Source: a virus
Direction: 5' to 3' (one strand)
IMG/VR virus record: IMGVR_UViG_3300004369_000100
Span: 1-29,120 of that record
Length of the DNA: 29,120 bases
This document shows positions 537 through 29,120 of this stretch, one piece after another. The position numbers were made by a program, and so were the translations under genes. Under the pieces are notes generated by a model. The model did no database searches. It worked only from the letters and a program-made list of their open reading frames with translations, and was not told the DNA's origin. Within the stretch, counting starts at the first letter, position 1, and each line of letters opens with the position of its first letter.

Positions 537-1472
537 ATGGATCCACTCACTATAGCCTTAATTCTTTCGGGAACAAAACTTCTTACTGAAACTGGTCAGG
601 GCATTAGTTTAAAAAGTAGAGCTAAAAAACAAAGAGAGCAGGGAGAGCAAATCGCTCAGGATGCCATGGACAGGCTTGACAAGCTTAATTTTGAGGTTGG
701 GCCTCAGTTTGGCGTCACTCAAGAAACGCGTGATTTGGCTGAACTTCAGATGCGTCAAGGCGCTGAAGCAATCGAAAATCTTAGAAATCAAAACCTTGCC
801 TTGGCTCAACAAGCTATTGCATCAGGCGTGCAAGATCCAACAAGATCTGGTCAAACGATTGCAAATATTGCCCCAGCTCTTGCCCAACAGCTAGAACAGT
901 CAGAATTGACTGCCGCTATGCAGTCTACAGAAGCAAAGCAAAAGGTTGCAGACTTGGCTGAACAGTATTCTAAAGCAAACATCTTAAGGGAGCAGGGTGT
1001 AATGGACCTGAATATTCAATCCGATAGAGCGCTACAGGAGCAGATAAGAAGAGAGGGTATGCAGGCTGCAGGTTTGGGCTTTGCTTCGGAGGGACAGGGT
1101 GTTGGTCAGATGATTAACGCCCCAGCAACTGGCATTGACACTGGAATATCGGCGTATAATTTGATGATTAAGAAAAATGGTGGCATGCTTAACGATCAGA
1201 TATATGTAACTGGAGGCGAGTTCAACCACGACACTAATAAGAAGGCTTTGGTTGATGAGGAAACTGGGGAGAAAGAGGCTGAGCTGACTGGTAATGAGGC
1301 GGTTCTCAATCCAGAGCAGACAGAGAGCACAATGGCTGCATTTAAGATGCTTAAGCAAGCTGTTGCAAAGATGGAGAACCCGCCCGAAGAACTTCTTGCG
1401 GCCTTGGAAAAGATGAGCCACTTCGATGAGCCTCAATTCCAAGTTCCTCAAATGGAAATTGAAATAGAGTAA
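537..1472 (+). CDS. Putative internal virion / ejection protein (311 aa)
   Basis: The protein starts with a short hydrophobic stretch (residues 3-16, PLTIALILSGTKLL). A long Gln/Glu/Ala-rich helical region (about 25-180) follows and is likely coiled coil. The C-terminal part (about 205-275) holds a Gly-rich segment around GGEFNHDTNKKALVDEE and TGNEAVLNPEQ, a type of motif that I recall from virion proteins of other phages, where its function is unknown. Size and position before two longer virion-like genes resemble the T7 gp14-gp15-gp16 internal core cluster, but I see no direct similarity to gp14. Its TAA overlaps the ATG of the next gene by one base, indicating translational coupling. The promoter-like box at 524-531 leaves almost no leader, so this may be the first gene of a transcription unit. 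The functional call is inference. Confidence 0.55.
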   Translation: MDPLTIALILSGTKLLTETGQGISLKSRAKKQREQGEQIAQDAMDRLDKLNFEVGPQFGVTQETRDLAELQMRQGAEAIENLRNQNLALAQQAIASGVQDPTRSGQTIANIAPALAQQLEQSELTAAMQSTEAKQKVADLAEQYSKANILREQGVMDLNIQSDRALQEQIRREGMQAAGLGFASEGQGVGQMINAPATGIDTGISAYNLMIKKNGGMLNDQIYVTGGEFNHDTNKKALVDEETGEKEAELTGNEAVLNPEQTESTMAAFKMLKQAVAKMENPPEELLAALEKMSHFDEPQFQVPQMEIEIE

Positions 1473-3166
1473 TGCCAGTAGCATATACAACCGGACTATC
1501 AATTACGACCGGAGCCGACTTTAAGCAGACACTTGCTACGCTTGATCAGCAAAAGAAAATGATGGCCGAACAACAAAAGGCTATTGTTGATCAAATGAAT
1601 TCTCGTCAAAAAGCAGCTGACAAAATGCTTTCCGAGACTGAGGGTTACGACGTATCAAAGCTTATCCCTCCATTGCGCCAGCATTTCAAGGATTACTACA
1701 ATCAGAAGCTGCAAGAAATAAACAACTTTGCTATTGACGACCCCGTCGCTGCACGCAGAGCTGTACAGGATATTGCAAACTGGTTCAACACTTATGCCGC
1801 ACACAACAGCGATGAGGTTCAAAGCAGTAGAGAGACGTACAATAAAGTTGCTACTGATGCGGCGTCTGCGGCCAAGTTTAACGATCAGCTTCCAGTTTAT
1901 ATGCAGTCTGCTGCATCTCCTCAATCTATGATTCAGGCTCAACAGGCCTTTGAGGGTACAAACATTGTCACTCAAATGGGGGCTGACGGAACCGTCATGT
2001 ATAAGTCTATCGATCCAGAAACTGGGGAACCAACTGGTGATTGGTCAGATATCACTAGCTGGGACGCTTGGGCCAACCCAGCCACCTTCACCGTTCCAAC
2101 ACAGGCACGCTATGGCAAGAGTGCTATTCAGATTGGTGAAGGAACAGTCAGGGATTCAGTTAAAGCCTTTAACAAGGATACTTGGAGTCGAGATGAGGCT
2201 TATAGAGTTGCTCGCGGTATTGTTAATGGTGGTATTGACAACGAAGACTCTGCTGCGGCGCGGGCTTGGGCTGTGGTAAACCTGTTTACAGACGCAATGA
2301 GAGACAATGAGTCATTGGTAACATCTTATATTCAGGGGGATATCAACAACGAAGCCTATAAGCTTAACTCTCAATACATTTCAGACATCAACGAGGAGCT
2401 TGTTAAGCAGATGGCAGAATCGTCTAGATTCATTGTTGAGGAAGACGAAGCGAAGAAGACTGGAGCGGAAAAAGACGCTGATATATATAGATCAGACTTT
2501 GACAGCCGTCAAACATTTGTATTAGATTCTCTTGAATATCTCAGAAGCGGGGAGCTCATGGAGACCGACGAAGACGGAGTTCTTGTGCCTATCAATAACT
2601 TTGAGATGTACGGAGGCGTTAACGGCAGCTCATATGTTTTATCTGCGCTTGACAAAAAGGGGGAAACAGTCGTTATTGATAACCCACGGGCTGGTGAGGA
2701 AAACAGAAGGCTTTCTGACCTTAACGAACGGTATGACGCTATAAAGGATAAAAGTTCTTCAGAGGCTCAATCACTCATGCGTCAAATTGATCAGCTCACA
2801 TACTCTCTCGGAGATATGGCTCTTGAGCCGGTACAGTTTGAGATTCAACCCAAAGAGATTGGCTTCCTTCCAAATGGAAAAGTTGTACTTATGGACCTTT
2901 CGGTTAAGAAGACTGGATCACAATACGATAAGGTCAAGACTATTATTCTTGATCAACAAAGAGACAGAGAGGCAGTGCAAACCATTTTGCAATCTATTAG
3001 AAGGACATATAGAGACCCTAACATTACTCTTGAGGGGTTACAGTCTGGAATTGTATTTGGCCCACAGGCAGAGCGGGAAAACGCCGTGAACGATGCTGTC
3101 AATCAAGTAGAACAGGCCACTCAACAAGGCGGGTTGTTTGATAATTATGGTCAAGAAGAGGAATAA
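1472..3166 (+). CDS. Putative internal virion protein, unknown family (564 aa)
   Basis: I do not recognise the family. The first ~150 residues are helical and rich in Gln, Lys and Ala, including a coiled-coil-like stretch at about 25-55. The middle is mixed alpha/beta, and the C-terminus is acidic (ends GQEEE). There is no signal peptide or membrane segment. The start overlaps the stop of the preceding gene (TAATG), and the stop is immediately followed by the ATG of the 1639-residue gene. Being locked between a gp14-like and a gp16-like gene suggests it is the middle member of an internal-core or ejection set, analogous in position to T7 gp15. That role is inferred from gene order only. Confidence 0.55.
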   Translation: MPVAYTTGLSITTGADFKQTLATLDQQKKMMAEQQKAIVDQMNSRQKAADKMLSETEGYDVSKLIPPLRQHFKDYYNQKLQEINNFAIDDPVAARRAVQDIANWFNTYAAHNSDEVQSSRETYNKVATDAASAAKFNDQLPVYMQSAASPQSMIQAQQAFEGTNIVTQMGADGTVMYKSIDPETGEPTGDWSDITSWDAWANPATFTVPTQARYGKSAIQIGEGTVRDSVKAFNKDTWSRDEAYRVARGIVNGGIDNEDSAAARAWAVVNLFTDAMRDNESLVTSYIQGDINNEAYKLNSQYISDINEELVKQMAESSRFIVEEDEAKKTGAEKDADIYRSDFDSRQTFVLDSLEYLRSGELMETDEDGVLVPINNFEMYGGVNGSSYVLSALDKKGETVVIDNPRAGEENRRLSDLNERYDAIKDKSSSEAQSLMRQIDQLTYSLGDMALEPVQFEIQPKEIGFLPNGKVVLMDLSVKKTGSQYDKVKTIILDQQRDREAVQTILQSIRRTYRDPNITLEGLQSGIVFGPQAERENAVNDAVNQVEQATQQGGLFDNYGQEEE

Positions 3167-8088: not shown

Positions 8089-8526
8089 ATGGAGGAAAAG
8101 AAGATCAAAGACACTAATTTAGGTAGGTGGTTAAAGGATAAAGCCCCTAACGTCTTAGACGTAGTAGGTGATCTCCTTCCAGATCAGGGGGCGTTGGGTG
8201 TAGTCAAGAACTTGATTGTCAGGGAATACCCCGACATAGACCCAGAAGAAGTCAGGGCAAAGCTTGACGCAGAGATAGCTTTTCAGAACAACGTTACAGA
8301 GAGATGGAAGGCTGATATGGGTGGTGATGTGAAGCTAGCTAAACTTATCAGGCCCGTTACACTTATAGTCCTTATGTCTATGTTTATGGTTACCATGGTA
8401 CTTGACAGCATGGATAATCTTCCATTTAGCGTTAAGGATTCATATGTATCTTTGTTGGAAATATTAATGCTAACATCATTTGGTGCATATTTTGCTGGTC
8501 GAACTATAGAAAAGTCTAGGAAATGA
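8089..8526 (+). CDS. Holin of the 3TM / GTA-holin type (145 aa)
   Basis: Residues ~25-45 form an amphipathic helix. The ERWKADM segment at 71-77 and the RP at 88-89 lead into a first membrane segment (about 90-107), and a second lies at about 120-137 ending GAYFAGRTIEKSRK. This order, with an E-RW-ADM stretch before RP and a C-terminal G-YF-GR-IEK, is typical of the 3TM holin family (the Pfam gene-transfer-agent-release holin type). Such holins make lesions in the inner membrane at the end of infection. The start lies two bases after the previous stop, and the TGA overlaps the next ATG (ATGA), so it is part of the late operon. No endolysin is recognisable nearby. Confidence 0.8.
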   Translation: MEEKKIKDTNLGRWLKDKAPNVLDVVGDLLPDQGALGVVKNLIVREYPDIDPEEVRAKLDAEIAFQNNVTERWKADMGGDVKLAKLIRPVTLIVLMSMFMVTMVLDSMDNLPFSVKDSYVSLLEILMLTSFGAYFAGRTIEKSRK

Positions 8527-9857
8527 GGGTAAGAAAATACCAAGGCGGAGGCAACATCAATGATTTATTGAGGATGCTTGAGCAGCAAGAGGTTCAGAAA
8601 GAATCTCAGAAAAGACTCCCGCCAGCATTTCCTATGGATACTGAGCCAGCATCTGCTTTATCTACTGGGGTCTCTATGAGGCCAGTAAAGTCTTTAGAAG
8701 ACGCTAATATGGATGCAAGTCTATCTGGCATGAGGACTCTGCATGGAAGAGATTACGAGCCGTTTGATCCATCTAAAACTCAAGGGATCAATCCAGTATA
8801 TCCATTAGGGGAACTTACTGGAGCTGGAGACATTAAGGGCATATTGGAGTCTATTAAAGAAGAAAGATTTGGAGAAGCAGCTTTGATAGCTGGTCTTGCT
8901 CTTACGCCAATACCCGTTGACACGGTAAAGAGATTGTACAATAGTATTGGCAGCTTCGTGAGGCCTAGCAACATGGATCTGGCAGAGAATATTATAGACA
9001 TCATAAAATTCAGGGGTGATCCAGCTGATTTGCTTAAAACATCTGGCATTTCTGGAGATATCTTCAATATGTCGCAAGAGGCTAGAAGTAAATTGGCGGA
9101 AGACCTTAGGGCTCTTGGAGAAACTGAAATTTATGACAATGCAGAGATAGGTCAGAAAATTATCGATGCTGGAGATGCTATCGAATCATACTCAAAATCA
9201 ATGCCAAGGCAAGATCTTCCTGAGTCTATTGGAAGCTTTAAAAAAGAAATGACTCAAGAGGACGTGGCGCAGGGGATTGTTATGAGATACACCACTGAAG
9301 ATGGTGGCTTTATGGAGCTTAGAAAATTCAACGATCCATTTGGTGATTATGAGGAGGTTTACGAGATGGATATATTTGCTAGGCCCTCTGATGGCCCTTC
9401 AATAGAAGCAGGTAAACTTTTAAAGACAGCGATTCAAGAAGTACCTAAAGGTGGAATCATGAGCTTTGAAGGATCATTGAGCACTGATTCCTATCCACTG
9501 GTCATGAAGTATGTTGAGTCAGGTAAGGCATCTATTGTTGATTCAAAGAATCTAATGTCTCTTAACGCAAGCGGAAAGAACCCAGTTCTTTTTTCAAGAA
9601 CATTTAATGTCGACAAGCAAGATGTTTTGGATATGTTTGATGCAGATCCAATGAAGCAAAGGGCGGCTTATTCTAGGTCAAAAGAGGCTATAGACGAAAA
9701 GCTAAAATCCTTCGGCTTGCCTAAGAGTCAGTTCGACCCGTTTCAAGGTATACTTATGCCACATCCAGTTATAAGGAAGGAAATACCTGTAGGTACCTAC
9801 TACATGGGTGGCTCCCTTAGGGCTAGCAAGAAGAAAAAATACGTAAGGGTGACATGA
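8523..9857 (+). CDS. Tandem paralogue 1 of 3, unknown phage protein (444 aa)
   Basis: First of three consecutive paralogues. The conserved N-terminus (about 1-105) begins MRVRKYQGGG, continues DLLRMLEQQEVQK and reaches SMRPVKSLEDANM, YEPFDP and ELTGAGDIKGI. Residues ~120-225 have diverged most. A conserved block near 300-345 reads PKGGIMSFEGSLSTDSYPL followed by a GKA. The C-terminus ends GTYYMGGSLRASKKKKYVRV. The order G-L at 300, then P-GG, S-DSYP and KY---GKA resembles the central strand-helix of GNAT acyltransferases, but the match is weak. There is no signal peptide or membrane segment. It overlaps the holin gene and the next paralogue by ATGA. A late, virion-associated or ejected protein is likely from position. 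Confidence 0.6.
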   Translation: MRVRKYQGGGNINDLLRMLEQQEVQKESQKRLPPAFPMDTEPASALSTGVSMRPVKSLEDANMDASLSGMRTLHGRDYEPFDPSKTQGINPVYPLGELTGAGDIKGILESIKEERFGEAALIAGLALTPIPVDTVKRLYNSIGSFVRPSNMDLAENIIDIIKFRGDPADLLKTSGISGDIFNMSQEARSKLAEDLRALGETEIYDNAEIGQKIIDAGDAIESYSKSMPRQDLPESIGSFKKEMTQEDVAQGIVMRYTTEDGGFMELRKFNDPFGDYEEVYEMDIFARPSDGPSIEAGKLLKTAIQEVPKGGIMSFEGSLSTDSYPLVMKYVESGKASIVDSKNLMSLNASGKNPVLFSRTFNVDKQDVLDMFDADPMKQRAAYSRSKEAIDEKLKSFGLPKSQFDPFQGILMPHPVIRKEIPVGTYYMGGSLRASKKKKYVRVT

Positions 9858-11233
9858 GGGCAAGAAAATATCAAGATGGAGGCCGTGTAGACGATCTATT
9901 GAGGATGCTTGAGCAACAAAACATACAGAAAGGTGCTCAAAGGCGCCTTCCTCCTCCATCACCTATGACTGCTGAGCCTTCGGCTGCCTCATCTACATCG
10001 GTATCTATGCGTCCAATAAAGTCTTTGGACGATGCTAATATGGCAGCAGCATTGTCTGGTATGAAGACACTCTTTGGCCAAGACTATCCAGAGTTTGACC
10101 CAGCTGCCGGGCAGGGGATCAAACCCGTCTATCCTTTGGCTGAGCTTACTGGAGCGGGAGACGTTAAGGGTATAGCTGAGTCGGTGACTCAAGGGCGGTA
10201 TGGTGAAGCCACCGCTCTTGCGGCACTTGCTTGGGCACCGATCCCAACAGAGACCCTTCATAAAATGTTCAGGTACGTCAAAGATAATTTCGGAAACCGT
10301 TCCGACAAGATCTTAGATGTCCTTAGCTCAATAGAATCTGGAGGAGATGTTGCTGAGGGAATTGACAACACGTTCTTCAGAGTAAACTCAGATCTCTCTG
10401 AACTTGATAGAAAATACATTACGCAGGATGTAGCTGACGCTGCCGATGAGATGCTTAATGAAGGTATCATCTCTGAAGAGATCGCAGATCATATGTATAG
10501 TTCCGCTAGGATCGTACAAAAGGGACCTAAGTTGGATGTGAAGGCAGGCGTACCAAAATCAATAGGCCCCTTTAAACTTCAGCCACGAAGAAACCCAGAA
10601 ATTTTGCTGGAGTATAAGCTTGATAACCGTCATGGTGGAGCAACCCTATCGAAAAATCCTGATGACTATAACAGATACGATATAAGCATTATTGCAGATA
10701 AGCAGGGAGTATCTAAGTTTACTCAGGGAAAGCTTATGGGGGAGATGATTAAGGCTGTGCCGGAGGGAGGAATTGTAGACATCGGAAGCATGAGCACAGA
10801 CTCATACCCATACCTGCTCAAGTACATTGAATCCGACAAGGCAGAAGTTCTTAACAATACAACTACTGGCTCATACAAGATTGTATACGACAATCTCAAC
10901 GACGCGGGTAGCAATCCTGACTTGATGGCTAGGATGTTTGGCGTTGATCCAGTGGATGTACAGTTAACGTTTAATCACGAGCAAATGGAAGAGTCGGCAG
11001 AAGAAATTCTGGCTGCAGCGAAAAGAATCAAACCAAAGATTGACGCAAAGCTCAAGGAGCTTGGACTTCCAGAAAGCAAGCTGGTAGATCTTGATCTAGA
11101 GGATATCGAGTATGGTGATTCACCCCTAGAAGTCCCATACCCTATTGTTAAAAAGAAGATACCTACAGGTACCTACTACATGGGCGGTTCTCTTAAGCCC
11201 GTGAAGAAAAAGAAATACGTGAAAGTGAAATGA
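9854..11233 (+). CDS. Tandem paralogue 2 of 3, unknown phage protein (459 aa)
   Basis: It has the same architecture as its upstream neighbour. The N-terminus reads MRARKYQDGG then DLLRMLEQQ and SMRPIKSLDDANMAAALSGM. The middle is variable. The conserved GGIVDIGSMSTDSYPYLLKY block lies at about 304-323, and the tail is GTYYMGGSLKPVKKKKYVKV. It is closest to paralogue 1 at the C-terminus and to paralogue 3 in residues 50-75, a mosaic pattern consistent with gene duplication followed by recombination among copies. It overlaps both neighbours by ATGA, so the three are probably translated together. Function is unknown. The basic KKKK tail could contact nucleic acid or a virion surface, which is speculation. 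Confidence 0.6.
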   Translation: MRARKYQDGGRVDDLLRMLEQQNIQKGAQRRLPPPSPMTAEPSAASSTSVSMRPIKSLDDANMAAALSGMKTLFGQDYPEFDPAAGQGIKPVYPLAELTGAGDVKGIAESVTQGRYGEATALAALAWAPIPTETLHKMFRYVKDNFGNRSDKILDVLSSIESGGDVAEGIDNTFFRVNSDLSELDRKYITQDVADAADEMLNEGIISEEIADHMYSSARIVQKGPKLDVKAGVPKSIGPFKLQPRRNPEILLEYKLDNRHGGATLSKNPDDYNRYDISIIADKQGVSKFTQGKLMGEMIKAVPEGGIVDIGSMSTDSYPYLLKYIESDKAEVLNNTTTGSYKIVYDNLNDAGSNPDLMARMFGVDPVDVQLTFNHEQMEESAEEILAAAKRIKPKIDAKLKELGLPESKLVDLDLEDIEYGDSPLEVPYPIVKKKIPTGTYYMGGSLKPVKKKKYVKVK

Positions 11234-12570
11234 GAGTAAGAAGATATCAAGATGGCGGCAAGGTCAATGACTTGCTGCGTATGCTAGAGCAACAAGAGGT
11301 TCAGAAAGAAGCTCAGAGACGCATGTTACCGCCTATGCCTATGGCTACTGAGCCAGCAGCGGCATCATCGACGGGTGTGTCTATGCGTCCAATAAAGTCT
11401 TTGGACGATGCCAATATGGCAGCAGCATTGTCTGGTATGAAGACTTTGTATGGAAGAGACTACGAGCCGTTTGATCCTGCTTCCGGTCATGGAGTAAAAA
11501 TGATATCACCAATTGCCGAAACGCTATCTCCTGTTGGCGACATTTCAGCTATGGCGGAAGCAGAAAACATTCCTCAGCTTGCACTTGCAGCTGGCATGGC
11601 AATCCTTCCGGGTAATGCCAGAACGTTGAGGGAATGGGTGGATTGGAACGTATCACCATCGAATCTAAACACCATGAATAAGCTCCTCGATAAGCTTGTG
11701 GAGCCAAAGTCAGCTGATGAGATTATCTCTGAGAATGCGCATCTGTTTAATATTCCTCAGTGGAGAAGAGATGAGTTGGCTTTTGATTTGGAGGACATGT
11801 ATAGAGAGCATAACATGTTTATAGAAAATCCCGGAGAGCTCGATAAGATTCAAGAGATGGCGGACATCTTGAGATCCGGAAAGATTCCTAAGGTAAATGC
11901 ACCGGATCAAAGTGTTCCTGACATCGGAGACTTTGTGGGTGAAACCGATCCAGCCAATGGCCTTATCGTTAAATACGAAAGCAGTAAGAACCCCATGGAA
12001 TACATGGATGTTGTGGAATCTGCGCCAAATAGCAACGAGTACATAATAAATGTTATTGCCCCCAAGTCAAGCCCACTGACTAGAGGTAAGCTAATAATGG
12101 CTGGAATAGAAAAGATTCCTGTTGGGGGTAAGATTAGTTTTGTTGGCGATGAGTTTGGCATAGCCAATACCATGAGTGCCGATGCATACCCTATGATGTT
12201 TAGATTTTTTAAGAGAGGTAAGGCTGAGCCAATTTTGGATAGTGTTGAATACGGAAGACTAAACTCACTAGGAGAAAATCCAGATCTGTTTGCAGGCACA
12301 TTTGGAATCGACAAAGCTGATGCTATTAAGATCGGATCAAATACGCGTATTGACGATAAAACAATAAATAGAGTTTTACCAAGAATTAATAGCAAGCTTG
12401 CAGAATACGGAATACCACCAGCAAGATTAACCGATAAATCAGAAAACGGGTCTTTCATTGAGTTCCCGTACTTCGACATTTTGAGAACTGCAGAGGGGTT
12501 CAAAAATGGTGGTTCACTTCGTGTATTGAAGATGCGGGGTGGCGGTAGATTTAGGGTAAAGAAATATTAA
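11230..12570 (+). CDS. Tandem paralogue 3 of 3, unknown phage protein (446 aa)
   Basis: The third paralogue keeps the N-terminal module (MRVRRYQDGG, DLLRMLEQQEVQKEAQ, SMRPIKSLDDANMAAALSGM) and a version of the C-terminal block (GGKISFVG, then MSADAYPMMFRFFKRGKAE). It lacks the ELTGAGD segment and the TYYMGG tail, ending instead NGGSLRVLKMRGGGRFRVKKY. It has therefore diverged most, although the terminal Gly-Gly-Ser-Leu and basic end are retained. It is the last gene of the ATGA-coupled set and is followed by a 72-base gap with a promoter-like box. No enzyme motif was recognised. Confidence 0.6.
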   Translation: MRVRRYQDGGKVNDLLRMLEQQEVQKEAQRRMLPPMPMATEPAAASSTGVSMRPIKSLDDANMAAALSGMKTLYGRDYEPFDPASGHGVKMISPIAETLSPVGDISAMAEAENIPQLALAAGMAILPGNARTLREWVDWNVSPSNLNTMNKLLDKLVEPKSADEIISENAHLFNIPQWRRDELAFDLEDMYREHNMFIENPGELDKIQEMADILRSGKIPKVNAPDQSVPDIGDFVGETDPANGLIVKYESSKNPMEYMDVVESAPNSNEYIINVIAPKSSPLTRGKLIMAGIEKIPVGGKISFVGDEFGIANTMSADAYPMMFRFFKRGKAEPILDSVEYGRLNSLGENPDLFAGTFGIDKADAIKIGSNTRIDDKTINRVLPRINSKLAEYGIPPARLTDKSENGSFIEFPYFDILRTAEGFKNGGSLRVLKMRGGGRFRVKKY

Positions 12571-12879: not shown

Positions 12880-14832
12880 TTATTGCAATACTTTTATTAC
12901 CTGTCGTATCCCCCCTATTTCTATCTCTGCAAGGTAGATCCCGAATGGAACTGGTCCAGCCTGAACTCTCTTTCCATCAAGCGTATAGTATACTGGGTTT
13001 AGGTTGAGGTCTTCGAGCTGTCTCACTGTCGGGGGTGCAAGCTCATTGCCATTGCAGTCTGTCCCGTATACAGCGATAAAGTTCAAGAAGTCTTGATTGT
13101 CTACATCAAAGTCACCGTCTGTGTCACAGACACAAGCCGCATCTTCCTTCCCCATCTCCATACAAATTTGCAAGAAGTCCTGAAGGTCTACCATCCCGTC
13201 CCCGTCAAAGTCACCCATACAATCTTGATTGTATACTGGGGTGTAGCTATCCTCTACGCATAAGTCGTACTCATAATCTGACGAAGGACCGCCTATATAT
13301 CCGATCTGGAACTCGTATGTACCATGATCGTAGATGGTGTCTGCTACGTACTCGTAAAGCGTTTCTGTGGGGCCTTCACTGCCGTATTCGATATAGATGT
13401 GCATACCACCGAGAATATCTACCAGAGACGTATCCCATACGTCTTGGGTCATACCATATCCGAAGTGACGGAAGAACCCTCCGTAGCACCCTTCGGTCAA
13501 ACAAATCTCATCGTGAGTGAACAATGGTTCGTAAGTGAACCCGTTATCCCAGTTGTCGTAGCTAGTCCATTCACCCCACGCACCTCCCTTTGCATACACG
13601 CCATTTGCATAGAGCGGATCTCCACAACAAGCCCCCTCCTTGTACAGCTTCCACTGCTCGTTCTCTGGCCAGATATCGTGTTGAATATCGATACTAAGAA
13701 CAGCCAAATCCTTCGGCTCGTGAGTGAACGACGTGATGTCGTTAAACGCATTCTCATCTTCGCTCCAGTATATCTCAGCCGTGCCACTGTATTCGTTCCA
13801 GAATGTTGCTGGGATTGGCTCCCCCACAAGAGTGACGATAGTGTTTGCAGGTACGTTAGCTGTAGTCATCCACATACCAGTCTCTATCGTCACGGATACA
13901 TCTACACCGAACGCATCATTGTTTGTCCAGTTAGCTATCTTTACCTCTGGCGTGAACTCCTCGTCACAATCGAAGTAATTGTCAATAGAGAGCAGAGCAA
14001 TATCAAACGAGTTAGGGTCAGCGCAAGATCCAGATTGCCAAACAGCGCTTCTCCCTCCGCTGACAAGGGCAGAGTGCATTCTTTCAATCTGACCATCAGT
14101 AAAGTGGTCTCTGCAGGGACCGGTGTAGTCCATGTAGTTAGTGATGTCAGCATCTGGGCAAAATGGTTCGATTAAACATGATTGATTTGTGTAAGTCGGT
14201 GGTGTATCGCATACTCTGTCGCCTTCCTGAGTACAGTCATCTTCAGAGCATCCTCCACCTTCAAATGTATGAAACAACCCGCAGTAGTGACCGATTTCAT
14301 GCACAAGAGTGTTTGATGTAGCCAACTCACCAAGGATGTATACGCCGTCGTAAGAAACCTCGGCGCTCTGATTTGGCCAGCTAAACCCACCAATGTTTGT
14401 TCCTAAGTTATTCATTACAAATACGTTACAAGCTTCACCTAAAGTATTGCTTGATGCAATGGATGCCATACCGTAGATAAGATTCGGTCCCTGCCAATTC
14501 TCGTAGTATACTGTATCTGGGTCGATGGACCACTCTTGGTAGAAGAACTCGTCGTGTCTGCATGGAATGATATCTGTACCCTCAAATCCCTGTTGAATCG
14601 TCTCCCACACATCATCTACCTGCGAAGCGTCCATAGCTCCGTTGATGTTGTGGATTGCGAACGGGAGGAACTTCGTAAATACGTCTTGGTTTCTAGATGC
14701 TTTACGCATCTCAAGATCGCGTTCGAAGTCATAATCTACATGTGAGCATTCAATCCCGCATATGTGAGTGGTTTGAGCTGCAGACAAAAGATTCAGTGCT
14801 GCGAACAGAGAAAAGAGCAGGAAGTTTTTCAT
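12880..14832 (-). CDS. Secreted M43-like (pappalysin/cytophagalysin) metallopeptidase with dockerin-like repeats and T9SS-type tail (650 aa)
   Basis: A signal peptide is evident (residues 1-19/20, LLFSLFAALNLLSAA), with no lipobox. The catalytic zinc motif HEIGHYCGLFH (178-188; ligands His178, His182, His188, catalytic Glu179) and the Met-turn region NYMDYTGPCRDHFTDGQ (232-248) are diagnostic of metzincins close to family M43. Residues ~270-530 are beta-rich with Cys pairs. Residues ~537-595 hold two Ca-binding, dockerin-like loops (GDFDGDGMVDLQDF and DTDGDFDVDNQDF). The last ~45 residues (YYTLDGKRVQAG, then FGIYLAEI and IKVLQ) resemble T9SS C-terminal sorting domains. It is therefore probably exported by the host's Sec and type IX systems. 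It stands alone, with AT-rich sequence upstream (14833-14900) and a terminator downstream. The biological role is unknown; an accessory (moron-like) gene is likely. Confidence 0.85.
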   Translation of the reverse strand: MKNFLLFSLFAALNLLSAAQTTHICGIECSHVDYDFERDLEMRKASRNQDVFTKFLPFAIHNINGAMDASQVDDVWETIQQGFEGTDIIPCRHDEFFYQEWSIDPDTVYYENWQGPNLIYGMASIASSNTLGEACNVFVMNNLGTNIGGFSWPNQSAEVSYDGVYILGELATSNTLVHEIGHYCGLFHTFEGGGCSEDDCTQEGDRVCDTPPTYTNQSCLIEPFCPDADITNYMDYTGPCRDHFTDGQIERMHSALVSGGRSAVWQSGSCADPNSFDIALLSIDNYFDCDEEFTPEVKIANWTNNDAFGVDVSVTIETGMWMTTANVPANTIVTLVGEPIPATFWNEYSGTAEIYWSEDENAFNDITSFTHEPKDLAVLSIDIQHDIWPENEQWKLYKEGACCGDPLYANGVYAKGGAWGEWTSYDNWDNGFTYEPLFTHDEICLTEGCYGGFFRHFGYGMTQDVWDTSLVDILGGMHIYIEYGSEGPTETLYEYVADTIYDHGTYEFQIGYIGGPSSDYEYDLCVEDSYTPVYNQDCMGDFDGDGMVDLQDFLQICMEMGKEDAACVCDTDGDFDVDNQDFLNFIAVYGTDCNGNELAPPTVRQLEDLNLNPVYYTLDGKRVQAGPVPFGIYLAEIEIGGIRQVIKVLQ

Positions 14833-20546: not shown

Positions 20547-20554
20547 CAAATTTA
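20547..20554 (-). promoter_or_regulatory. Bacteroidota-type -7 promoter box (TAAATTTG)
   Basis: On the minus strand TAAATTTG (20554-20547) matches TAnnTTTG, and an ATTG lies about 20 bases upstream as a weak -33 element. The box overlaps the stop codon of the DnaA-like gene and gives a leader of roughly 15-20 bases before the ATG at 20525. It would start a recombination-replication transcript. Confidence 0.6.
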
Positions 20555-20992
20555 AGAGTTAGTTTGCTGTTCGGCAATTATAGTCTGCATTTTTTTTACT
20601 CTTCGCTGTAATTCAGCGATGGTCTTTAGATACAAATGAATCTGTGACTGGATGTTATTGCTTGATGAACGTATGATTGGTAGAATTCCCGCCATCTCAG
20701 AAAGGTCTTCTGTAATCTTAACGGCAGTCATATATTTAGCCGCATAGTTTGGATAGTAGTGCATCATTGGCTCGTGCTCTTTTGAGTAGTGAACTATAGT
20801 GGAGTGGTCTTTATTGAATAATTGTCCGATATCTTTTGTCGTTGCGTATGGACGCAACGCATTGGATAGTGCCACACGATGCTCTACGTAGTCGTGAAGA
20901 CGAGATGCGTCCTTGATTTCACAACCAACAGCCCCCTCGTATGTCCTTCGAACCTCGAATAGAAGTGCGATTCGTTCATCCCTTTCTTTCAT
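20552..20992 (-). CDS. DnaA domain IV-like DNA-binding protein (146 aa)
   Basis: Residues ~5-72 are helical and end in ATTKDIGQLFNKDHSTIVHY (50-69). This corresponds to the DnaA C-terminal helix-turn-helix signature (xxIGxxFxxDHSTVxxA) that reads DnaA boxes. There is no AAA+ domain, so it is not a full initiator. The C-terminal part (about 100-146) is helical with a coiled-coil pattern and could dimerise. It may bind the phage origin or compete with host DnaA. It lies directly upstream of the recombination genes and overlaps the previous gene by 17 bases. Confidence 0.7.
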   Translation of the reverse strand: MKERDERIALLFEVRRTYEGAVGCEIKDASRLHDYVEHRVALSNALRPYATTKDIGQLFNKDHSTIVHYSKEHEPMMHYYPNYAAKYMTAVKITEDLSEMAGILPIIRSSSNNIQSQIHLYLKTIAELQRRVKKMQTIIAEQQTNS

Positions 20993-26165: not shown

Positions 26166-26203
26166 GATGATTGAGTTTTGAAGTTTGACATTGAGAGGTG
26201 TTG

Positions 26204-26242
26204 TATATATACTCTCTTCACTACGTTCAGAGAGTATATATA
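26204..26242. repeat. Perfect 14-bp hairpin with TCACTACGTTC loop
   Basis: TATATATACTCTCT (26204-26217) pairs fully with AGAGAGTATATATA (26229-26242). The 11-base loop is almost the same as in the hairpins at 27323-27366 and 28003-28043, and it resembles the CTTCG/GTTC loops of repeats common between Bacteroidota genes. It lies between the 27-aa and 72-aa genes and may terminate, attenuate or stabilise the transcript. Confidence 0.65.
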
Positions 26243-26256
26243 CTAACACTCTCTAT

Positions 26257-27015: not shown

Positions 27016-27069
27016 GACACAGACACCACTAAAGTGGTGTTTCGTCCATTCAGGACTCGTCAGTGTGCC
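27016..27069 (-). ncRNA. Type I hammerhead ribozyme
   Basis: On the minus strand, stem I is GGCACA (27069-27064) with TGTGTC (27021-27016). The core is CTGACGA. Stem II is GTCC/GGAC with loop TGAAT, then GAAA. Stem III is ACACCAC/GTGGTGT with loop TTTA, then the cleavage triplet ending GTC. The loop of stem II is identical to that of the ribozyme at 25890-25939, while stems II and III have changed by compensating bases, strong evidence of a conserved fold. Cleavage is expected after 27022. It begins eight bases after the stop of the 67-aa gene. Confidence 0.9.
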
Positions 27070-27322: not shown

Positions 27323-27366
27323 GTGTGTATCACTTCCTTCACTTCGTTCAGGAAGGTGATACACAC
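27323..27366. repeat. Long hairpin with TCACTTCGTTC loop
   Basis: GTGTGTATCAC (27323-27333) pairs with GTGATACACAC (27356-27366), and TTCCT (27334-27338) with AGGAA (27350-27354), leaving one bulged G. The loop equals that at 28018-28028. Both hairpins are also followed on the plus strand by TCACACTACA. It sits between the HhH-like gene and copy B of the MSNVSDI gene. Confidence 0.65.
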
Positions 27367-28002: not shown

Positions 28003-28043
28003 GTGTATATACTTTCTTCACTTCGTTCAGAAAGTATATACAC
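28003..28043. repeat. Perfect 15-bp hairpin with TCACTTCGTTC loop
   Basis: GTGTATATACTTTCT (28003-28017) pairs fully with AGAAAGTATATACAC (28029-28043). It is the third member of the hairpin family seen at 26204-26242 and 27323-27366, each directly upstream of an early gene on the minus strand. Here it precedes the HhH-like gene by 23 bases. Confidence 0.65.
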
Positions 28044-28125: not shown

Positions 28126-28698
28126 TCACTTGATTCCTGCTTCCTCCAAGCTAACTTCGTTAGCTGGAGAGGCAACATCAGCACTCATCAGCAGTGTTAC
28201 ACACTGAGTCAGAGCCGTCAACTGCTCCCGAAGCTCTTTCAGAGCTTCACTTTCAGTAGACTCAACCTTCGGTTGAGCGGCCTCCTTGGCGGCCTTCCGC
28301 TCCTGTGCCTCCGCCCTCCGCTTGGCCGCAAGCTGAGCTTTCGGTGACTTGGCTTTAGCCAAGGACCGCTTCTCCTCCATCTCTGCAAGAGATGCCTTAG
28401 CTTCGGAGACCGAAGCTGTCTTAGCCTTCGGAGAAGGCTTGACTGGAGTGTCAGCCTTCCCATGGAAGGCTTTCTCTTGACGGTCAGCAACTCGTTGCTG
28501 AGGAGTAGCTTTCCTCGACTTCGTCGTCTTACGACGACGCTTTGTTGGTGTTTTCGACTCCTTAACCTCTTCGAGGTTAGCGACGAAGTCCAAAGCTTCT
28601 TGCAGAAGCTTCGTGGCTGCGGCCTTGCGCTCTGCGGTGGGACGGAAGGTGGCTTGGTTGACAGCCTTGCGGCAATCGGCAAAATTGAAGTTTGACAT
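28126..28698 (-). CDS. Lys/Ala-rich basic protein encoded by a hairpin-packed sequence (190 aa)
   Basis: The product begins MSNFNFADCRKAVNQATFRP and then is dominated by Lys, Arg, Ala, Glu and Ser (e.g. KRRRKTTKSRKATPQQR, KAQLAAKRRAEAQERKAAKE), like histone-H1-like or other nucleic-acid-binding tails. The last ~40 residues form a helix (ALKELREQLTALTQ). The ATG at 28698 stands at the base of the hairpin 28699-28755. The coding sequence contains at least eleven perfect 6-8 bp inverted repeats (listed separately). It is the most upstream early gene in the window, so it may be expressed first. Function unknown; nucleic-acid binding is inferred from charge. Confidence 0.6.
   Translation of the reverse strand: MSNFNFADCRKAVNQATFRPTAERKAAATKLLQEALDFVANLEEVKESKTPTKRRRKTTKSRKATPQQRVADRQEKAFHGKADTPVKPSPKAKTASVSEAKASLAEMEEKRSLAKAKSPKAQLAAKRRAEAQERKAAKEAAQPKVESTESEALKELREQLTALTQCVTLLMSADVASPANEVSLEEAGIK
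28149..28611. repeat. Array of perfect short hairpins inside a coding sequence
   Basis: Perfect inverted repeats, mostly 7-8 bp with a 3-base loop, lie at 28149-28165, 28230-28248, 28261-28277, 28348-28363, 28378-28394, 28399-28417, 28423-28439, 28453-28471, 28484-28501, 28521-28537, 28563-28579 and 28593-28611. Examples are GAAGCTCTTTCAGAGCTTC and AAGCTTCTTGCAGAAGCTT. The stems differ in sequence, so this is not a copied repeat, but centres are often 30-31 bases apart. Weaker pairs lie at 28124-28137 and near 28326. Confidence 0.75.
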
Positions 28699-28755
28699 GA
28701 GATAATGTATTAGAATGAAACTCACTAGAGTTTCTTTCATTCTAATACATATCTC
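28699..28755. promoter_or_regulatory. Long leader hairpin abutting a start codon
   Basis: ATGTATTAGAATGAAA (28705-28720) pairs fully with TTTCATTCTAATACAT (28735-28750), GAGAT (28699-28703) pairs with ATCTC (28751-28755), and CTC/GAG close an ACTA loop. On the minus strand the base of the hairpin touches the ATG of the 190-aa gene at 28698, so folding could hide or present the start site. Confidence 0.65.
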
Positions 28756-28771
28756 TACATTTCGACCATAA

Positions 28772-28925
28772 TTACTCTAACTAGTTAGAGTAAAAGTTGA
28801 GCCAGCCTCGGTACCAACATGAAGCTCAACTAGTTGAGCCGCGTGGTACCGCCTGTATACGCCGCTCCGCCAAGTCGATTCTCCAACTTTCTGTTTGTAT
28901 TTTAATACTAACTAGTTAGTATTAA
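28772..28925. repeat. Three perfect palindromes sharing AACTAGTT
   Basis: Palindromes of 22 bp (28772-28793), 16 bp (28824-28839, GCTCAACTAGTTGAGC) and 24 bp (28902-28925) all have AACTAGTT at the centre, while their flanks differ. The middle one is enclosed by CGGTACC (28809-28815) and GGTACCG (28845-28851). Such iterated dyads suggest binding sites for a dimeric protein, an origin, or cruciform-forming DNA. Confidence 0.7.
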
Positions 28926-28950: not shown

Positions 28951-28967
28951 CACCCCGTTAAGGGGTG
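28951..28967. terminator. GC hairpin, terminator-like
   Basis: CACCCC (28951-28956) pairs with GGGGTG (28962-28967) around GTTAA, with ATTGC (28946-28950) and GCAAT (28973-28977) able to extend the stem across a bulge. No long T-run follows, so it may be a structural or regulatory element and not a terminator. Confidence 0.4.
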
Positions 28968-29120
28968 AATTAGCAATGGTAAATGGATTGGGGAGGGATT
29001 GTTCCACCCTACAAGACCAATGCGTTGGAACGTGTGGTCTCCTGCAGTGGTCGACTCAACTCGGCCTAACCAATTGTGTTACAGTACCTTGTACTGTACC
29101 AAAAGCTGAAAAGTGTGGCG
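28968..29120. other. Non-coding end of the window with inverted repeats
   Basis: No protein gene is supportable here. GTTCCA (29000-29005) faces TGGAAC (29025-29030), AGACCA faces TGGTCT, and ACAGTAC/GTACTGT (29081-29087 and 29091-29097) forms a 7-bp hairpin with CTT loop, the same geometry as the hairpins in the 190-aa gene. The stretch is probably structured RNA or DNA belonging to a feature that continues beyond the window. Confidence 0.4.

Follow-up and report, generated by a model that had tools for sequence, protein, structure and literature searches.

Dense arrays of short, perfect hairpins run through a minus-strand gene (28126-28698) in a linear virus record of 29,120 bases, here called the window, and through homologous genes in related viruses. 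In the window, 13 non-overlapping hairpins (stem of at least 6 bp, loop of 2-5 bases) lie at 28149-28611, and 12 of the 13 have stems of at least 7 bp (Table 1). An earlier note on this DNA, which had counted at least 12 perfect hairpins in the same interval, proposed that selection acts on pairing and not on a repeated motif. This proposal is supported both by codon shuffles and by compensating changes in homologues. We give nearly an even chance to the idea that the array is a new kind of cis-element, in which dozens of sequence-unrelated, shape-recognised DNA mini-hairpins are spread through coding sequence and would form a supercoil-sensitive platform starting the early programme.

Hairpins in excess of codon composition

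Synonymous codon shuffling, a check proposed in the earlier note, does not reproduce the hairpins. Among 3000 shuffles that kept the protein and the codon usage, the mean number of stems of at least 6 bp is 1.95 (SD 1.26, maximum 7), and none reaches the 13 found in the gene. Similarly, 12 stems of at least 7 bp are found versus a shuffle mean of 0.62 (maximum 5), and 5 stems of at least 8 bp versus 0.14 (maximum 2). Chance and codon composition are thus ruled out as the source of the hairpins, in the window gene as in its homologues. Folded as a single DNA strand, the gene reaches -127.8 kcal/mol (z = -6.8, 100 dinucleotide shuffles). Hairpin counts in the other genes of the window are mostly near the expectation from codon shuffles; three genes (1472-3166, 9854-11233 and 12880-14832) show a mild excess consisting almost entirely of 6-bp stems.

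The stems show no sequence kinship or consensus except for a pyrimidine beside the loop, and apart from this base the earlier description of them as unrelated is borne out. The hairpins had also been described as often about 30 bases apart. Several spacings between centres are indeed 30-31 bases, but they range from 22 to 86.5 (42, 40, 30, 86.5, 30.5, 22, 23, 31, 30.5, 36.5, 42 and 31) and do not establish a 30-base period. In homologues, the spacings are grouped at about 20-50 bases, with modes near 21-23, 30-31 and 41-44. Neither a fixed 30-base period nor a 10.5-base helical period is significant once homologous gaps are clustered, although an unclustered analysis had looked suggestive. Helical phasing and bending were therefore dropped as ideas, and without a spacing rule a regular nucleoprotein is unsupported.

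Two points had been missed earlier: the loops are under strong constraint, and the array extends into the upstream non-coding DNA, which it fills to at least 29098. It may continue past the end of the window. Three of the upstream palindromes (28772-28793, 28824-28839 and 28902-28925) have AACTAGTT as a common core, which sets them apart from the hairpins of the gene, and they may be operator sites.

Table 1. Hairpins and palindromes of the array in the window
Feature	Position	Remarks
Hairpin AGCTAAC-TTC-GTTAGCT	28149..28165	coding strand reads C-GAA-G
Hairpin CAGTGT-TAC-ACACTG	28192..28206	GTA on coding strand
Hairpin GAAGCTCT-TTC-AGAGCTTC	28230..28248	
Hairpin CTCAACC-TTC-GGTTGAG	28261..28277	
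Hairpin CTTGGCT-TT-AGCCAAG	28348..28363	
Hairpin CATCTCT-GCA-AGAGATG	28378..28394	
Hairpin AGCTTCGG-AGA-CCGAAGCT	28399..28417	rebuilt in homologues with other centre and pairs
Hairpin AGCCTTC-GGA-GAAGGCT	28423..28439	
Hairpin AGCCTTCC-CAT-GGAAGGCT	28453..28471	within invariant protein motif KAFHGKA; homologues compensate synonymously
Hairpin TCAGCAAC-TC-GTTGCTGA	28484..28501	within conserved motif TPQQRVAD
Hairpin TCGTCGT-CTT-ACGACGA	28521..28537	RRRK codons
Hairpin TAACCTC-TTC-GAGGTTA	28563..28579	coding strand CTC-GAA-GAG; in 13/13 close homologues, two compensated pairs
Hairpin AAGCTTCT-TGC-AGAAGCTT	28593..28611	
16-bp inverted repeat	28705..28750	upstream non-coding; encloses hairpin GAAACTC-ACTA-GAGTTTC (28717-28734)
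Perfect palindrome TTACTCTAACTAGTTAGAGTAA	28772..28793	upstream non-coding
Palindrome GCTCAACTAGTTGAGC	28824..28839	upstream non-coding
Perfect palindrome TTAATACTAACTAGTTAGTATTAA	28902..28925	upstream non-coding; fold-back point of the contig of near relative L002
Hairpin CACCCC-GTTAA-GGGGTG	28951..28967	upstream non-coding
Hairpin TACAGTAC-CTT-GTACTGTA	29080..29098	upstream non-coding

Compensating changes in homologous genes

Array loci were gathered through homology of the encoded 190-aa protein, on contigs that are fragments. A direct search found 22 relatives in viral contigs, and 33 viral loci were found with alignment; no relatives were found in bacterial genomes or in the annotated phage collection. 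Full-length close relatives carry 11-15 hairpins in the gene versus 1-2 expected, most distant relatives carry 6-13, and the weakest relatives (L060-L063) only 2-4.

In a codon alignment of 13 close sequences, the 124 column pairs common to at least 4 of the 13 are Watson-Crick in 79% of cases, versus 37-54% in slid controls. Compensating changes, which the earlier note had suggested looking for, are present and the hairpins are kept: both sides have changed in 25 column pairs, versus 2-9 in slid controls. The RRRK hairpin TCGTCGT/ACGACGA, for example, has become TCTAGAC-GTAA-GTCTAGA in loci L007, L009 and L013, with an altered protein. At the C-terminus, GCTAAC-GAA-GTTAGC (28149-28165) is replaced in distant relatives by the compensated GCAAAC-GAA-GTTTGC, which changes Ser to Cys. 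Several sites carry a perfect hairpin whose centre is shifted from one clade to another (350.5 versus 352, 386 versus 388.5 and 471.5 versus 473). As judged from these alignments, the conserved property is a hairpin at roughly the same place and not a particular stem. Insertion of hairpin elements of the REP type, one of the origins first considered, is rejected because the stems are unrelated and the hairpins covary at fixed positions. The protein sequence appears to bend to the pairing need of the DNA, with synonymous sites and some amino acids set by the hairpins. If this is true, the gene offers an unusually clear overlap of a protein code and a DNA-structure code.

Loops and closing pairs

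Three-base loops are the commonest, two-base loops are frequent, and stems are of 6-8 bp. In the non-coding part, the two strands are equally represented among triloops (GAA 11:TTC 10, AAG 7:CTT 7) and among two-base loops (AA 8:TT 9). The closing pair is 5'-pyrimidine/purine-3' (C-G or T-A) in 94 of 98 non-coding cases versus 49% in shuffles, and loops of the GNA class on either strand account for 54 of the 92 non-coding triloops, where shuffles of the 500 upstream bases give 12%, and for 32 of 51 triloops in the gene, where codon shuffles give 18%; these ratios are indicative and not exact, the hairpin sample being phylogenetically non-independent. When closed by a C-G pair, GNA and GNNA loops are known to form extraordinarily stable, nuclease-resistant DNA mini-hairpins (Hirao and colleagues, PMC4686876).

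It is very unlikely that the array works as RNA, that is, as a string of mRNA hairpins with a part in translation, stability or the binding of proteins. Most of the hairpins do lie in a transcribed gene, and GAA loops dominate its coding strand, but this excess of GAA over TTC equals codon bias and so gives no evidence for RNA. The strand symmetry of the non-coding loops also argues against an RNA role, as does the abundance of two-base loops closed by perfect pairs. There is no enrichment of stems containing one G-T (the gene has 0 versus 2.6 expected), and at variable covarying pairs G-T is no commoner than A-C (44 versus 54). An RNA scaffold and translational pausing, both raised in the earlier note, are disfavoured by the strand-symmetric non-coding loops and the lack of a G-T preference. 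No Rfam family was found over the array. The nearest-neighbour energy parameters used, for DNA and for RNA, fail to separate the triloops, and hence we make no energy argument. Overall, the sequence evidence suggests that the property preserved is folding of the DNA and apparently not of the RNA.

Extent and genomic position of the array

In five long contigs from relatives (55-65 kb), the array is each time the sole dense hairpin region. The late and early operons diverge; the array starts in the gap that separates them and extends across the first early gene of substantial size. In the average of 17 loci, the frequency of hairpins of at least 7 bp is raised between about -800 and +600 relative to the gene start, and it fades by about +1600. 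Arrays contain from 13 to about 35 hairpins, the latter in G007, where they occupy 1.8 kb and span several ORFs. Outside the array, the same genomes contain 65 stems of at least 7 bp versus 55.5 expected, with no bias towards GNA loops. The strongest excess outside an array is in the giant virion gene of G008 (37732-46857, 3041 aa), with 25 hairpins of at least 6 bp versus 8.2 expected and 8 of at least 7 bp versus 1.6.

These distributions bear on a mutational origin, in which the polymerase, by switching templates where the DNA is locally single-stranded (quasipalindrome correction), would perfect the repeats and pairing would be a by-product. Template switching has been demonstrated to homogenise the arms of inverted repeats in yeast genes and to alter the proteins (PMC8604942); it predicts paired changes in both arms, protein-changing ones included, and the protein concerned, in which A, K, S and E are abundant, seems tolerant of change. 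However, no comparable hairpin excess or loop bias exists elsewhere in the same genomes, and the array is denser within the coding sequence than in the non-coding DNA next to it. Moreover, homologous loops have changed about 50 times by substitution and 4 times by inversion, spacer inversion being a hallmark of the process, and perfect 8-bp hairpins with synonymous compensations lie in the most conserved protein motif. We consider this origin unlikely, at least as a sole cause.

The association between the array and the gene is partly built in because the loci were found through the protein. The array is absent from the large-terminase relatives G016, G017, G018 and G020, long contigs in which the gene was not detected; among the other large-terminase relatives, G019 is a weak case. 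In G021, where the gene match is in the N-terminal part only, the array is present, with C-GAA-G and C-GTA-G loops, and in G022, which has a distant copy of the gene, that copy shows no hairpin excess. The array is also absent from two cultured relatives, Panino and elemoF (the first 50 kb of the latter), and from the uncultured relative MW202828 (L043), which has a repeated palindrome, GTGTCGTTAACGACAC, instead. Eight identical copies of this palindrome lie along the start of its early operon (43745-47668), and these are probably operators.

Contig breaks near the array are more frequent than seems expected and fall at varying points. A physical genome end at the array is rejected, as the break points differ and other long contigs hold the array in mid-contig. 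Over its whole length, the contig of L002 (1-9750) forms a perfect palindrome with its centre at TTAATACTAACTAGTTAGTATTAA, which lies 217 bases upstream of the gene. It is probably an assembly fold-back at this palindrome, and it shows an assembly cause for a contig break near the array.

The position of the array in a gene for a basic early-operon protein resembles that of the origin of phage lambda, which lies in the initiator gene O and uses repeated iterons. An origin of this kind, with hairpins loading a primase or an initiator on exposed strands, would agree with the primase/helicase and the DnaA domain IV-like protein encoded nearby. In contrast to the lambda iterons, the array hairpins share only structure. 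No DnaA boxes (TTATNCACA) and no outstanding AT-rich stretch were found in any array examined; the windows of lowest G+C are mostly elsewhere, though one at 28681 is among the six lowest of the whole stretch, and GC skew keeps its sign at the array. A replication origin is thus improbable. The more general suggestion of an origin or packaging site in the earlier note has likewise gained no positive evidence, since DnaA boxes are lacking and contig ends are not consistently at the array.

Comparison with known systems

No known system matches the array, and a search of open-access papers found no genomic array of such DNA mini-hairpins. The known case of a phage using mini-hairpins extruded by supercoiling is that of the N4 promoters. 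The N4 promoter has a 7-bp hairpin with a sheared G:A in a 3-base loop, which extrudes at sub-physiological supercoiling in a gyrase-dependent manner and is read by its protein through shape plus few base contacts (PMC4496689). The array is similar to it in the stem of about 7 bp, the 3-base loop with a sheared G..A, the C-G closing pair, the early-operon position in a podovirus and the freedom of part of the stem to vary if pairing is kept (PMC4496689). It differs in having 13 to about 35 hairpins, inside coding sequence and with GNA on either strand, and in lacking conserved stem bases; a virion RNA polymerase was not recognised in the giant proteins scanned.

The array could accordingly be a set of N4-like hairpin promoters at the head of the early operon, each read by an injected virion RNA polymerase that has gone unrecognised, but we regard this as distinctly unlikely. 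The stem length, the 3-base loop, the C-GNA-G motif and the early-operon position all match N4, and virion proteins of the ejected type (2000-3100 aa) are encoded that have no family match; PHROG and Pfam gave none in the giant virion proteins scanned. On the other hand, the stems are without the conserved bases that the N4 polymerase reads, and it would be odd for a single gene to contain 13-35 promoters, on both strands. A search for T7-type RNA polymerase motifs gave one weak, unconvincing match (in G008), and a search with PF00940 gave no match, with the control silent too. In the window, the search for T7-type or crAss-type motifs gave a DFDGD match that falls in an M43 peptidase.

In the target of a diversity-generating retroelement (DGR), a cruciform forms in which the stem may have any sequence (PMC3240598). 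Like the hairpins proposed for the array, it is a small DNA cruciform in a phage gene, with a free stem of 7-10 bp and a constrained loop (GRNA), but it has a single hairpin per target, a 4-base loop and an adjoining variable repeat. Identity with DGR targets is rejected, as no reverse transcriptase (RVT_1) was found in the 13 records tested, in a search whose control was positive. The d(GCGAAGC) mini-hairpins with GNA or GNNA loops (PMC4686876) share the loop motif and the C-G closing pair, but they are oligonucleotides. REP, BIME and REPIN elements are likewise many small hairpins; they share stem sequence and spread as copies, whereas the array stems are unrelated and their positions are homologous.

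A candidate platform for protein docking

The gene comprises 573 bases and encodes a basic protein of 190 aa plus stop (MSNFNFADCRKAVNQATFRPT...), with a helical N-terminus, a KRRRK-rich middle and a helical C-terminus that is likely a coiled coil. An AlphaFold2 model is all-helical, with a confident two-helix N-terminus but low confidence overall (pTM 0.26), and gives no clue to the fold. No relatives of the protein were found in Pfam, PHROG, NCBIfam or the PDB.

We tentatively favour, at somewhat less than an even chance, the reading that the array consists of supercoil-extrudable DNA mini-hairpins that form a protein docking platform, perhaps for the gene's own basic protein, at the start of the early operon. 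Both elements of this reading, cruciform DNA and binding by the basic protein, were among the candidates of the earlier note and stay viable. On this view, the array would be maintained because pairing of the DNA as such is under selection. Stems of 6-8 bp with loops of the C-GNA-G type would extrude as mini-hairpins under negative supercoiling, generated by gyrase or divergent transcription, or alternatively when the strands part during replication. The exposed hairpins would then serve a DNA-binding protein as numerous equivalent docking sites that it recognises by structure, and the basic, helical protein of the same gene is the most economical candidate for this role. The resulting nucleoprotein patch could control the start of early expression or replication. 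We infer both extrusion and reading of shape because N4 promoters and DGR targets behave analogously. If the encoded protein is the reader, it would represent a new class of shape-reading DNA-binding protein. The array family, with 13 to about 35 hairpins per genome at no fewer than 33 loci, would be a natural test system for mini-cruciforms in cells.

Other features of the genome

The window also encodes a BT4734-like primase/helicase, an exonuclease VIII and virion proteins. The array phages are a marine family whose hosts are probably Flavobacteriia, a host range suggested only by related cultured phages. A small protein encoded at 20552-20992 weakly matches the C-terminal DNA-binding domain of DnaA (E 2e-4, which falls below the Pfam cut-off) and is a possible DnaA-box-binding protein. 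Near the starts of neighbouring minus-strand genes, three hairpins of some 15 bp or longer (26203-26243, 27324-27364 and 28003-28043) resemble one another and have the common loop region TTCACT(T/A)CGTTC; they seem to be copies of a regulatory element belonging to the early operon. A sub-threshold match to the type I hammerhead ribozyme at 27025-27069 (E 0.09, 21 bits versus a cut-off of 34) is probably due to chance. At 12880-14832 the phage encodes an M43 (pappalysin-type) metallopeptidase of 650 aa, also present in G004, whose C-terminus resembles a Bacteroidota secretion tail. Finally, three tandem and clearly related genes at 8523-12570 encode MR(V/A)R(K/R)YQ(G/D)GG... proteins of 444-459 aa.
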